From Intrasporangium calvum DSM 43043 (GTDB taxonomy: Bacteria; Actinomycetota; Actinomycetes; Actinomycetales; Dermatophilaceae), in NCBI RefSeq assembly GCF_000184685.1, contig NC_014830.1:1550001-1614000 (forward strand): 64,000 bases of DNA, written 5' to 3'. How positions within the stretch are numbered: the stretch's first letter is position 1; every line of letters starts with the position of its first letter. The notes beneath the pieces were generated by a model that was not told the DNA's origin, made no database searches, and was given only the letters and a program-made list of their open reading frames with translations. A program made the position numbers and the translations under genes. Shown here piece after piece: positions 27,697 to 31,963 of the stretch.

Positions 27697-29640
27697 TCAG
27701 TCGGGCGCCGGCCGCCTCGTCACGACGTAGAGGTCGTCGGTGCGCCAGTCGGCCACCGCGCCCGGGGGGGCGGCCGTCCCGCTCCGCGTCGCGACCCGCA
27801 CCAGCAGCCGGTCCAGGGTCGAGTGCGGTTGCCCGCCTCGCCGCACGACCGGTGGAGCCTGGGCGACATCCACGTCCAGCTCGGGCTGCTCGAGGGAGCG
27901 CGGGTCGAACTCGAGGGTGCTCGTGATGATCTTGAGGTGGTCGGTCACCTGCACCGTGCCTGCCTCCCACAGCTGGTCCGACAGCTGACCGGTGAGTCCG
28001 ACGGCTCTCGAGGTGCCCGCCTCGAGACTGGTCGACCCGGCCGGGAAGGCGTCCGTGAAGATGCCGTACGTCTCGGTGAGGTCGAGCAGCGCGCACCAGA
28101 GGGGCTGCGGCGTCGTGTTGGTGAGGGTGACGGTGAAGGTCGGTGCCCGCTCGCCGGCGTACGCGATCTCGAGCCGGCCGTCCTCGGTGAGTCGCCCGGA
28201 CTCCGACGTGACCACGACCCGCATCGAGCCGGGAGAGAGCCGGGTCGCGGGGTTGCCGAGGGACGAGAGCCGGAGCCATCGCGCCACCCGCTCGAGGGCG
28301 GTGATGGTGCGCTGCTCGCAGTGCTGCCCCGCCACGACGGGTACGAGAGGGCGGGTGACTCCGGGCCGGGTGATGGCGAAGCCGGCCGGCAACGCGCGCA
28401 CCACCAGGTCGGCCATCGTCGGGTCGCCCGTCACCTGGATCAGCGTCGTGTCAGCCGAGGCCGCGGCGGCCTCCAGGGCCTCGGTGCCGGCAGACTCTCC
28501 GACGATCGCGACGTCGAGTGGCTTCAGGGGGATCGTCCTGACGACCGCTCGGTAGACGAACCCCGGGTCGAGGTCGGGCACGACGTCGACCAGCGACCGG
28601 TCGGGCAGCACGGAGGTCACGGCGGCCTCGGCGAGCGGGGCGCCATCCGTCTCGTCGCCGAGCGCATAGACCGCGAGCTCGGTCGTGTCCTCCCCGATCG
28701 GCTCCGGCACACCGTGCACCGCGCCGGCATCGATGCTCCAGCCGTCGGGGAGGCGGCTCAGGGTCAGCTGCATGGGACGGGCCGGCAGGACCCCACCGAG
28801 GAAGGCGAGGTCCAGGTCTGTCGCGTCCCCCGTCTCGAGCTGCGGGTGCTGGGCCTCCACCCTTCCCAGCACGCCGGCGGTGACGAACCGGTGGATCTCG
28901 CGGTAGGTCAGCTCGTGGCTGTGGTCGCGGAGGGCTCGCTCGAGGGCCGCCGAGAGCGCGCCACGACAACGACCGCCGACAGTGAGCTCCTTGGCGGTCT
29001 CCCCGGAACGGCATGCAGCGAGGAGGACGTGGTTCGCCCCGACGCGGGTCGACCACGCGCTGCGCGTCGGGGCAGGACCACGCTGGTCAGGCGGCCCGGG
29101 CATGGAGGCATCGGGCAGGAAGGTGTCCCAGGGGCGGGCCCGCGGGTCCTCGGGTGCCAGACGCAACCGGACCGAGCCGTTGGCGTCCCGGGTGCCGTCT
29201 CCTGAGTGGCAGCAGTCCAGGACCACGAGGAGGTGGCCGACGGACTCGGCCACGCCCGCGAACAGGCCGCTCAGCTCCTTGTCGGCGAGGTCCCAACCAC
29301 CGGGAGAACGGCTGTCCACGAGGACGATCGTCTCGTTGCGCCGGTCCGGCTCGACGCTCCACAACTCCGGAGGCGCCTGCTGCTGGGACCCGTGACCGCT
29401 GAAGTAGAAGAGCGCGACCGAGTCGGCCCCCCGTCCTGCGAGGTGGCTGCGAATGGCGTCGACGACGGCGGCTCGGGTGGCCTGCTCGTTGGTGAGGACA
29501 CGGAGGTCGAGGTCACCCGGGGGCACCCGCGCGGTCAGCGTCTCCGCCATCGCCCTCACGTCGTTGACGCACCCGACGAGGGGAGGCACCGGCTCGGGGT
29601 AGCCGTCGATGCCGACGAGGAGGGCATGGAGGGTGGGCAC
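27697..29640 (-). CDS. Caspase-family (peptidase C14) protein
   Basis: 647-residue cytosolic protein, second gene of a two-gene operon; its start is 4 bases after the CHAT protease stop. Residues 1-285 form a metacaspase-like peptidase: catalytic His83 in FYFSGHGSQ and catalytic Cys144 in VVLDCCHSGDG, with LLAACRSGETAKE as the usual downstream strand. The remaining 360 residues have no domain I can name; they contain beta-rich segments (VYALGD, FTVTLTNTTPQPLWCALLDLT) that resemble DUF4384-like or immunoglobulin-like effector/sensor domains. No signal peptide. Likely executes regulated proteolysis once activated by the CHAT partner (inference). Confidence 0.9.
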   Translation of the reverse strand: MPTLHALLVGIDGYPEPVPPLVGCVNDVRAMAETLTARVPPGDLDLRVLTNEQATRAAVVDAIRSHLAGRGADSVALFYFSGHGSQQQAPPELWSVEPDRRNETIVLVDSRSPGGWDLADKELSGLFAGVAESVGHLLVVLDCCHSGDGTRDANGSVRLRLAPEDPRARPWDTFLPDASMPGPPDQRGPAPTRSAWSTRVGANHVLLAACRSGETAKELTVGGRCRGALSAALERALRDHSHELTYREIHRFVTAGVLGRVEAQHPQLETGDATDLDLAFLGGVLPARPMQLTLSRLPDGWSIDAGAVHGVPEPIGEDTTELAVYALGDETDGAPLAEAAVTSVLPDRSLVDVVPDLDPGFVYRAVVRTIPLKPLDVAIVGESAGTEALEAAAASADTTLIQVTGDPTMADLVVRALPAGFAITRPGVTRPLVPVVAGQHCEQRTITALERVARWLRLSSLGNPATRLSPGSMRVVVTSESGRLTEDGRLEIAYAGERAPTFTVTLTNTTPQPLWCALLDLTETYGIFTDAFPAGSTSLEAGTSRAVGLTGQLSDQLWEAGTVQVTDHLKIITSTLEFDPRSLEQPELDVDVAQAPPVVRRGGQPHSTLDRLLVRVATRSGTAAPPGAVADWRTDDLYVVTRRPAPD

Positions 29641-29644
29641 GGGG

Positions 29645-31963
29645 TCAGCCCGCGTCCGCGAGGAGGACGGTCTGCCACTGCGCAGGGTGGTTCTGCGCGC
29701 GCGCTGTCCGGTCCGGGTTGCTGCTCAGCATCGCCTTCAACGTGCCGGCCCGTTCCGCGTCACTGACGTTGAGGTTCATCCCGACGACCGTCCCCCGCGC
29801 TGGTGCGATGCTGAGTCCCAAGGTCCTCCACGGCACCCGAGCCTCGAGCTGGTAGCCGTCAGCCGTGTCGCGGCGGGCCACGACGATCGACGGTTCGTCG
29901 TCACCGGCCGCGAAGCGTCCCTTGCTCACCCGGTTGATGGCCGCCCGCGCCCCTCGGTTGCCGTCGTCCACCAGGCCGATGAGGACATGGAGGTCACGAC
30001 CTGGACGCAGTGGGTCGTTCGCACCGAGCGGCCTCGGGTCCGGGCCGAACTCGAACGACACGCCGTCCCCGGTCCAGAAGCTCCCTGGGTCAGACGTCCG
30101 CACGGCGGTCAGCCGGGAGTCCGTGACGGCCGCGTAGAGGAAGAGCGCGTCCTTGTCCCACAGCATCTTCCACGTGCTCGAGAGTCCGTCGCGAACCCCG
30201 CCTCGGCGATCGACGACGGCGGTGACGGGGTGGGTCGTCACCGACCGCCAGTCGTCGAACTCTCCGTCGACGACCGGAGCCACCGGGGCGCACCCCACAC
30301 TGAAGGAGGTCCGCGGTGGTGCCGATGCTGCCGGGGACCCGCAGGCGAGGTCGACCAAGGGCTCGGCGCGCTGCATCAGGGTGGGCAGCAACCGCCAGGC
30401 GAGGAACCCGGCCCCGAGGACGACCAGCCACAGGACGACTCTGACCACCCGCGCCGGGCGGATCCGCCCGGCAGCTCTGGAGGAACCGCCCGGTGCCCGA
30501 CCGCGCGCACTGCGGTCCTGCTGCTCGCGCTCGGGCTCCAGGAGGTCGCGTTGCGCCCTCGCCTCCTCCGCCTGGCGGGCTTCCTCCTCGCGGCGGGCTG
30601 CCTCCGCCTGGCGGGCCACAGCCGCCCGCGCCACCTCGGCCCGGCGAGCGGCGCTGACCGGGCCCTCGGGTGGCGCAGCGCCCGGCCCGCCCTTGACGGC
30701 TTCGAGGAGCGTCGTGACGTCTGCGTAGTCGGGGCGTTCCGAGGCGATCTGCTCGAGGATCGGCACAGCGGCTTCGGGCGTGGCCGATCCCAGCGACGAC
30801 TGGGCTGCCGCGTAGAGCGACTCCAGGCGTCCTTCGGGTGCCGGCTCCGCGGTCCTCCCCAGGGCCGACACGTCGAACGGCTGACCCGACCCCGACCTGA
30901 CGAGCACGGCCGTCCCCCACTCCGCCGACTCGTCGGACGTGGCCATCGCCTTGCGGACCTCGCAGATCGCCGCATCGATGGGCAGGCCACGGGTCAGGAA
31001 GTAGTAGAACTCGTGGCTGAAGACGAGCGCCGCCCGGTCGGAGATCTCCGTCTGCATGGCGACGACGGACGGCAGGCCCTGGCGCACGATGGCCTGGGCG
31101 ACGCCGGAGAACGCGTCGCGCCCGCTCGTCCGCGCACCCTCACAGGCGTTGAGCACCACGAGCTGCATGCCGTTGGCGTCGTGGAGCAGGGTCCCGAGTC
31201 GTGACGCGCCGACTCGATGGCCGGTCCCGTCCTCACGTTCCAGGACGAGCACCCCCTCGTCGGCGCCCTGGTCGAAACCGCCGTGGCCGATGAAGTGGAA
31301 GACGTGGAAGGTGTCGAGCAGAGCCCGCTGGAGGCCGGTAAGCGTCGCTTCCGTCAGGACGACGAGCTCGAGCCGGCCGCTCGCGACGAGGTCTGCGGTC
31401 GTCGCCCGCAGCAGCTCCTCCTCGTGCGCCACGGCGAGCTGGGGCAGGTCCGACGGGCTCGAGATCATGACGAGCACCCGCAGCGGGGCAGCGACCCGGA
31501 CCGCGGCCGGCACGTCCAGCGCGTCGAGGGAGCGGACGATCGGCGTCTGGGAGGACAGGGTGAGGAACCGCCCGAGCTCGCTGTCGTAGAGGTACTCCCA
31601 CGGGACCGGCTCGAGGTCCGGAGCGGCGTCGAGGGCGAGGCGCACCCGAAGGCCCAGACCCTGCTGCTTCGCGCTCGAGAGGCTCTCCCGGAAGAGCCGG
31701 TCGACCTCTCCGGCGAACAGGGCGTCACCCAGGCGTTTGCCGTACTCCCGGACATCGGTGACCCGGGTCTCGGCCGGAACGAGCCGGCGCGAGGCGATCC
31801 GTGGTGGCCCGACGGCTGTCATGAACTGGGCGAGCTCCACCGCCGTGAACGGCAGGACGAATGTGGCGGTGCCCGTACCGGCAGGCGAGCTCGTCACCCG
31901 GGCCCCCTGCCCGGCCGACGTGTTCTCGATGGAGACCTCGAAGTCGAGATAGTCGCGTTCCAC
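29645..31963 (-). CDS. CHAT-domain protease with membrane anchor and CBM9-like outer domain
   Basis: 772 residues. A CHAT caspase-like domain fills about 100-365, with catalytic His227 (HFIGHGGF) and Cys274 (LNACEGART); VPWEYLYD and AMQTEISDRAALVF are typical of the family. Then come a short helical-repeat-like stretch (about 380-420), a charged coiled coil (438-485), one transmembrane helix (506-527) and a beta-rich domain (560-770; DGEFDDW, LFLYAAVTDSRL, FWTGDGVSFEFGP) that resembles carbohydrate-binding module 9. Topology predicts the protease inside and the binding domain outside, i.e. a signalling receptor. GTG 31963 is chosen because GAGGGGGG precedes it by 5 bases. The partner caspase follows after 4 bases. 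Confidence 0.9.
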   Translation of the reverse strand: MERDYLDFEVSIENTSAGQGARVTSSPAGTGTATFVLPFTAVELAQFMTAVGPPRIASRRLVPAETRVTDVREYGKRLGDALFAGEVDRLFRESLSSAKQQGLGLRVRLALDAAPDLEPVPWEYLYDSELGRFLTLSSQTPIVRSLDALDVPAAVRVAAPLRVLVMISSPSDLPQLAVAHEEELLRATTADLVASGRLELVVLTEATLTGLQRALLDTFHVFHFIGHGGFDQGADEGVLVLEREDGTGHRVGASRLGTLLHDANGMQLVVLNACEGARTSGRDAFSGVAQAIVRQGLPSVVAMQTEISDRAALVFSHEFYYFLTRGLPIDAAICEVRKAMATSDESAEWGTAVLVRSGSGQPFDVSALGRTAEPAPEGRLESLYAAAQSSLGSATPEAAVPILEQIASERPDYADVTTLLEAVKGGPGAAPPEGPVSAARRAEVARAAVARQAEAARREEEARQAEEARAQRDLLEPEREQQDRSARGRAPGGSSRAAGRIRPARVVRVVLWLVVLGAGFLAWRLLPTLMQRAEPLVDLACGSPAASAPPRTSFSVGCAPVAPVVDGEFDDWRSVTTHPVTAVVDRRGGVRDGLSSTWKMLWDKDALFLYAAVTDSRLTAVRTSDPGSFWTGDGVSFEFGPDPRPLGANDPLRPGRDLHVLIGLVDDGNRGARAAINRVSKGRFAAGDDEPSIVVARRDTADGYQLEARVPWRTLGLSIAPARGTVVGMNLNVSDAERAGTLKAMLSSNPDRTARAQNHPAQWQTVLLADAG

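Follow-up and report, generated by a model that had tools for sequence, protein, structure and literature searches.

In the present study, we describe a pair of adjacent genes in Intrasporangium calvum DSM 43043 that encode a single-pass membrane CHAT protease with a CBM9-fold domain, predicted to face outwards, and a metacaspase-type caspase. The domain anatomy of the two proteins and the partnership between their genes are firm, and these features are not due to chance because the whole two-gene unit has been kept in about 20 species. The new element is the combination of a membrane CHAT protease and an outer CBM9-fold domain in one protein; CHAT-caspase cascades and pairs consisting of a membrane protein and a caspase were already known, and our search of open-licence papers found none on CHAT with CBM9 or on this architecture. 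We give an even chance to the whole of a two-component membrane protease relay running from the receptor CHAT protein to the caspase, of which the ligand, the activation, the direction of cleavage, and the outcome are what we infer.

The gene pair in its chromosomal setting

The window, which was the whole stretch of 64,000 nt analyzed, is part of a genome consisting of a single contig of 4.02 Mb, with Intrasporangium, Terrabacter, and Humibacillus as the closest relatives. Both genes, and all of the features given below for their proteins, lie on the minus strand. The CHAT-TM-CBM9-like protein of 772 aa is encoded at 29645..31963, and its open reading frame starts with GTG at 31963, the residue at which its relatives also begin. 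The caspase gene (27697..29640; 647 aa; Pfam Peptidase_C14, E 4e-20; PADLOC caspase, E 4e-36) is located 4 nt downstream, and the original prediction was correct in the coordinates, strand, and spacing of the genes.

The neighbors of the pair encode BioY, CbiQ, a YgjV-like protein, YhhN, LeuS, and DegV, with BioY downstream, and no phage, CRISPR, defence, or mobile genes were found among the neighbors identified, which agrees with the earlier statement that no CRISPR gene lies beside the pair. In the general family annotation of the adjacent genes, the immediate neighbors fall in families other than gasdermin; they belong to other, housekeeping families, and a gRAMP/Cas7-11 neighbor, as in Craspase, is absent from among them. 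The leuS gene was present within the fetched stretch of 16 of the 18 related loci, in which YgjV-like and YhhN genes are also near the pair. We also looked for a third conserved member of the operon, but the downstream genes in most other loci proved to be a convergent phosphatase and others on the opposite strand, so that none of them is part of it, and a scan for promoters and terminators at the pair found nothing. A search of plasmids yielded distant CHAT domains only and no CHAT-CBM9, and viral contigs contained no relative of CHAT-CBM9 except for one mislabelled record. This record, MT836801 (MT836801.1), is labelled 'Bacteriophage sp.' and is an unverified faecal contig of 8.7 kb that resembles a piece of bacterial chromosome and encodes CHAT-CBM9; the subtilase beside this gene was rejected as a substitute partner because it is convergent and apparently exported.

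Regarding the partnership, the caspase gene directly follows the CHAT-CBM9 gene on the same strand in all 18 close loci, in 17 of which the two are within about 15 nt of each other or overlap, and they are divergent neighbors in the four genomes (4/4) of a genus of another family. Among 60 genomes of the window's family, which were surveyed by a reciprocal search with the threshold for the presence of the caspase set at E 1e-40, seven had both genes, none had the caspase only, one had a distant CHAT-CBM9 only, and 52 had neither (Fisher p 2e-8, uncorrected for phylogeny, that is, for shared descent). The co-occurrence that had been proposed as a check on the original prediction was thus found. 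The pairwise distances of the CHAT protein and the caspase are correlated (r 0.93 over 23 taxa), a pattern that results from vertical inheritance, and two loci (L030 and L041) carry two receptor genes per single caspase. In Intrasporangium calvum PheN6, the second CHAT-CBM9 gene (L030:13109-15439) is located beyond bioY; the window strain is without this gene. CHAT-CBM9 proteins that have no adjoining caspase (L066 and MT836801, the latter being L077) tell against the relay, since they suggest that a caspase is not required for the receptor to act. In a second family (L079:8210-12380, L080, and L081), the CHAT-CBM9 gene is followed by genes for an RpiR regulator, a SIS-domain protein, and a sugar-type ABC transporter, which may be chance or possibly a hint to an amino-sugar.

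The pair is an inherited accessory module in a fixed chromosomal housekeeping slot beside leuS, outside any defence island. CHAT and caspase proteins had been described as acting in bacterial programmed cell death and defence; because the vertically inherited pair occupies a housekeeping locus and not a defence island, the evidence does not establish such a role here, and this setting, with its lack of mobile or defence neighbors, also weighs against the relay. The proximity to leuS and the vertical inheritance are consistent with a housekeeping relay of the envelope or cell cycle, in which the CHAT protein would trim a regulator as HetF does at the divisome, and the caspase would serve wall growth or differentiation as a further regulated protease. 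HetF from heterocyst-forming cyanobacteria is a CHAT protease that cleaves PatU3 and has a supporting role in septal wall synthesis (PMC12288457). It was the sole NCBIfam match of the CHAT protein, and the two have in common that a protease of the CHAT type works at the envelope. However, this match was sub-threshold, at 67 bits against the equivalog cut-off of 1200 bits, HetF has no caspase partner, and the partner in the window is a caspase and not a PatU3-like protein. Since the 52 family genomes with neither gene imply that the pair is not essential there, we consider a housekeeping relay to be fairly unlikely.

Architecture and topology of the CHAT protein

The CHAT protease domain (residues 73-346; 30926..31747) was detected by Pfam with an E-value of 8e-33, and its score of 114.5 bits against a cut-off of 24 places the protein in the CHAT family (PF12770). 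His227 (31283-31285) and Cys274 (31142-31144), the two residues named in the original prediction, are invariant in 25 CHAT-CBM9 proteins. The family profile found SAVED-CHAT 8tl0 as the sole CHAT structure, and a PADLOC SAVED_CHAT match (E 1e-13) extends over residues 161-407, covering CHAT sequence and the first portion of a TPR-like stretch. This TPR-like helix pair (residues 379-421; 30701..30829) shows a mean identity of 60%, with a weak TPR_19 match in the relative L067, and precedes a variable low-complexity cytoplasmic linker (residues 422-503; 30455..30700). Mean identity is 18% over residues 422-515, and the composition of the linker, which is Glu/Arg/Ala-rich in the window protein, shifts to Pro-, Asp-, or Ser-rich sequences or a short repeat in relatives. 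A coiled coil noted previously falls within this linker and was rejected as a conserved feature, the conserved element being the helix pair before it. Two further loci (L070:6078-8483 and L073:7587-9842) encode CHAT proteins that share this N-terminal type but match TIR_2 weakly at their C-terminal end; the CHAT half is constant, and the module that follows it differs.

As had been expected, the protein has one transmembrane helix, a single hydrophobic segment at residues ~504-522 (30398..30454), and hydropathy is above the threshold in 16 of 19 homologues. In the homologue set, the 20 residues flanking the helix contain 81 K/R on the N side versus 20 on the C side, and, given this positive-inside bias, the CHAT domain is predicted to be inside and the CBM9-like domain outside. 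The juxtamembrane stalk (30290..30343) contains Cys541 and Cys558, which probably form a disulfide: both cysteines are present in 23 of 27 sequences and neither in four, and a single cysteine was never found. This joint presence or loss is the pattern expected of a disulfide on the outer face and provides an independent hint of the outside topology, so that the predicted placement of the C-terminal domain, although drawn from sequence only, is consistent with both the charge bias and the cysteine pairing. The caspase has no N-terminal or other membrane segment, and the one hydrophobic stretch that more than half of its homologues show corresponds to the strand immediately preceding Cys144; taken together with the CHAT-inside topology, both protease domains are predicted to be cytoplasmic.

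The outer domain (residues 562-772; 29648..30280) is CBM9-like by both profile and fold. Pfam CBM9_1 matched it with an E-value of 8e-14 and a score of 52.4 bits against a cut-off of 23.4 (PF06452 / CAZy CBM9), and residues 562-761 matched the Thermotoga CBM9 module 1i82 at E 5e-8 by sequence and 2e-18 by the family profile. The structure prediction that had been suggested for this region gave a model with a pLDDT of 89.8, the top structural match of which was the CBM9 module 7nwn (Z 22.2, rmsd 2.5 A over 183 residues), and the comparison with 1i82 gave Z 20.7 and an rmsd of 2.6 A over 187 residues. The fold is thus shared with these two modules along the entire outer domain (Z 20-22), and the CBM9-like C-terminus of the original prediction was confirmed at the level of the model. 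The window domain differs from them in being fused to a membrane protease and not to a xylanase, and in its binding site. W71 and W175 of 1i82 form the two-tryptophan clamp that sandwiches the sugar in CBM9. The position of W71 is W or F, and thus aromatic, in each of the 25 primary proteins of the alignment (Ser or Leu in two second copies), whereas that of W175 is a near-invariant Gln757 in the caspase-linked proteins, such that only one of the two clamp positions is aromatic.

The sensing of wall fragments or a glycan, as stated originally, is therefore not supported, and the missing half of the clamp is also a point against the relay. The CBM9/DOMON fold binds haem too, in other proteins, and the domain may be a wall tether or a domain for haem or another ligand and not a glycan sensor, with the CHAT-caspase pair answering an internal cue. 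This reading draws on the loss of the W175 equivalent and on the next-best folds, which are haem-binding subunits, one from ethylbenzene dehydrogenase (Z 13.8) and one from nitrite oxidoreductase (Z 13.0), although a fold in common is no proof of function. We regard it as unlikely because the CBM9 sugar modules score far higher against the model (Z 19-22) and the W71 position retains its aromatic residue in the primary proteins. Mean identity is 46% in the outer domain versus 73% in the CHAT region and 65% in the caspase halves, and this faster divergence is as expected of a sensor. The outer domain likely has a ligand, which may or may not be a sugar of the cellulose or glucose type; that a glycan is the trigger is a guess.

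The caspase and the proposed relay

The caspase domain (residues 3-283; 28792..29634) was identified by structural matches of the first 285 residues to metacaspase 4 (6w8s_D, Z 19.1) and metacaspase 9 (8a53_A, Z 18.5). We relied on this domain match alone because the full model was moderate (pLDDT 69, pTM 0.48). D27, H83, D142, and C144 are invariant in 23 caspases, among them the His83 and Cys144 of the original prediction, and the acidic S1 residues are the Asp of the NDV and DCC motifs. The fold, the His/Cys dyad, and the acidic S1 residues place the protein among metacaspase-type C14 peptidases. It shares with metacaspases and orthocaspases the caspase fold (Z 18-19 to plant metacaspases) and the invariant His/Cys and acidic motif residues, and differs from them in having an extra Ig-like C-terminal half, a conserved tail, and a constant CHAT neighbor. 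The Ig-like beta-sandwich (residues 466-590; 27871..28245) gave PapD/ASH/MSP-like matches in Foldseek, with modest model confidence. The tail (VADWRTDDLYVVTRRP; 27700..27753) comes after a disordered loop and has a mean identity of 66%, the consensus ADWRT..VxxTxRP, and a Trp632 that is invariant in 23 caspases. These last 18 residues were modelled as a strand, and a docking or inhibitory tail is possible.

The linker between the p20 and p10 halves contains an RxAPxDxRxRP motif (RLAPEDPRARP, residues 160-170; 29131..29163), a candidate processing site. R151, R160, R167, and R169 are invariant in 23 caspases, down to a genus at 46% identity, and the linker itself is variable in length and disordered in the model (mostly pLDDT below 50). 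The motif was absent from another caspase of a related genome. Since caspases are processed in the linker between their halves, this motif is the prime candidate site of the activating cut, which may be made by CHAT or by the caspase itself; the latter possibility, autoprocessing without CHAT, is a further point against the relay. The order may also be reversed, the caspase being the initiator that cuts the juxtamembrane linker of the CHAT protein and frees the CHAT domain from the membrane. Metacaspases prefer Arg/Lys, and the linker of residues 422-503, which is long, variable, and often Arg/Lys-rich near the membrane, would suit such an enzyme. However, this poorly conserved linker has no conserved cleavage motif, whereas that of the caspase has invariant arginines, and the receptors have been duplicated while the adjoining caspase stays single, which makes the reversed order quite improbable.

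In the relay that we propose, the first gene would encode a single-pass membrane receptor, with CHAT in the cytoplasm and the CBM9-fold ligand domain outside in the zone of the Gram-positive wall, and the second a soluble metacaspase-type zymogen, apparently from the same transcript. An outside cue, which may be a glycan of the wall or of foreign origin, some other small molecule, or the loss of wall contact, would alter the oligomeric state of the receptor and thereby switch the CHAT domain on. Active CHAT would then cut the caspase, most likely in the p20/p10 linker with its invariant arginines, and the active caspase, with its Arg/Lys specificity, would cut cell proteins, leading to growth arrest, death, or a stress response; death as the outcome is a guess. 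To our knowledge, the bacterial CHAT-caspase relays described so far are driven by internal signals, such as CRISPR second messengers and NTPase switches. If the proposed relay is true, an outside signal would reach a caspase directly through one membrane protein, in what would be among the simplest receptor-to-caspase pathways, and this would bear on the roles of bacterial caspases outside phage defence. It would be easy to test because only two genes are involved and the hosts are culturable soil actinobacteria. More tentatively, and with a lower probability than the relay as such, the pair may be a counterpart of death receptors, in which extracellular glycan binding by the CBM9-type receptor would act through a CHAT initiator in the same molecule on an executioner caspase, and a single caspase would be shared by receptors that duplicate and diverge.

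Related systems and other CHAT/caspase pairings

In type III-B CRISPR, the SAVED-CHAT protease reportedly activates PCaspase. This cascade (Steens et al., 2024) is cited as ref. 17 in PMC11417357. Considering this precedent, which the original prediction did not name, and given that 8tl0 is the nearest solved CHAT and has a caspase as its partner, activation of the caspase by CHAT is likely by analogy. The window pair shares with SAVED-CHAT/PCaspase the combination of a CHAT protease and a caspase gene, and differs from it in that the CHAT protein has no SAVED domain (CHAT and CBM9_1 only in Pfam), resides in the membrane and bears a CBM9-like domain on the outside, and has no type III CRISPR genes beside it. 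The EACC1-caspase systems, which are common in actinobacteria, also consist of two genes, a 5' gene for a protein with one TM helix and a 3' caspase gene (Kaur et al., 2020, PMC7159879). The 5' protein of the window differs from theirs in being a CHAT protease with a CBM9-like domain; general Pfam/NCBIfam searches with it gave no match to EACC1, and the window caspase scored 48.5 bits against the cut-off of 140 of the NCBI model for EACC1-associated caspases. Since the window pair lacks a defining feature of SAVED-CHAT, EACC1, and HetF systems alike, we regard it as a receptor-like variant distinct from each of them.

The best support for a functional link between CHAT and the caspase comes from Humibacillus xanthopallidus (G053), which has a second caspase that is 48% identical, carries the same linker and tail motifs, and is fused to the alpha/beta-hydrolase-like DUF7379. 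The gene directly upstream of this paralogue, on the same strand, encodes a different type of CHAT protein, in which CHAT is C-terminal and CBM9 is lacking. This caspase family thus remains linked to CHAT even where the CHAT partner has changed. The genes form a three-gene run (L089:4202-11148 on G053:C2) of a CHAT-like protein, the C-terminal CHAT protein, and the caspase-DUF7379 fusion, and the first of these seems to have lost its histidine. The window's own genome also has a second pair of neighboring CHAT and caspase genes (G000:C1, about 2891207-2895490; L069:7208-11491), which encode a DUF7362-DUF7379(hydrolase)-DUF7363-CHAT protein of 1118 aa and then a caspase of 290 aa. At another locus (L072:6032-9758), a TCAD7-CHAT protein is located beside a DUF7379 alpha/beta-hydrolase, an arrangement that is similar to the ternary VMAP systems described by Kaur et al. 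(2020).
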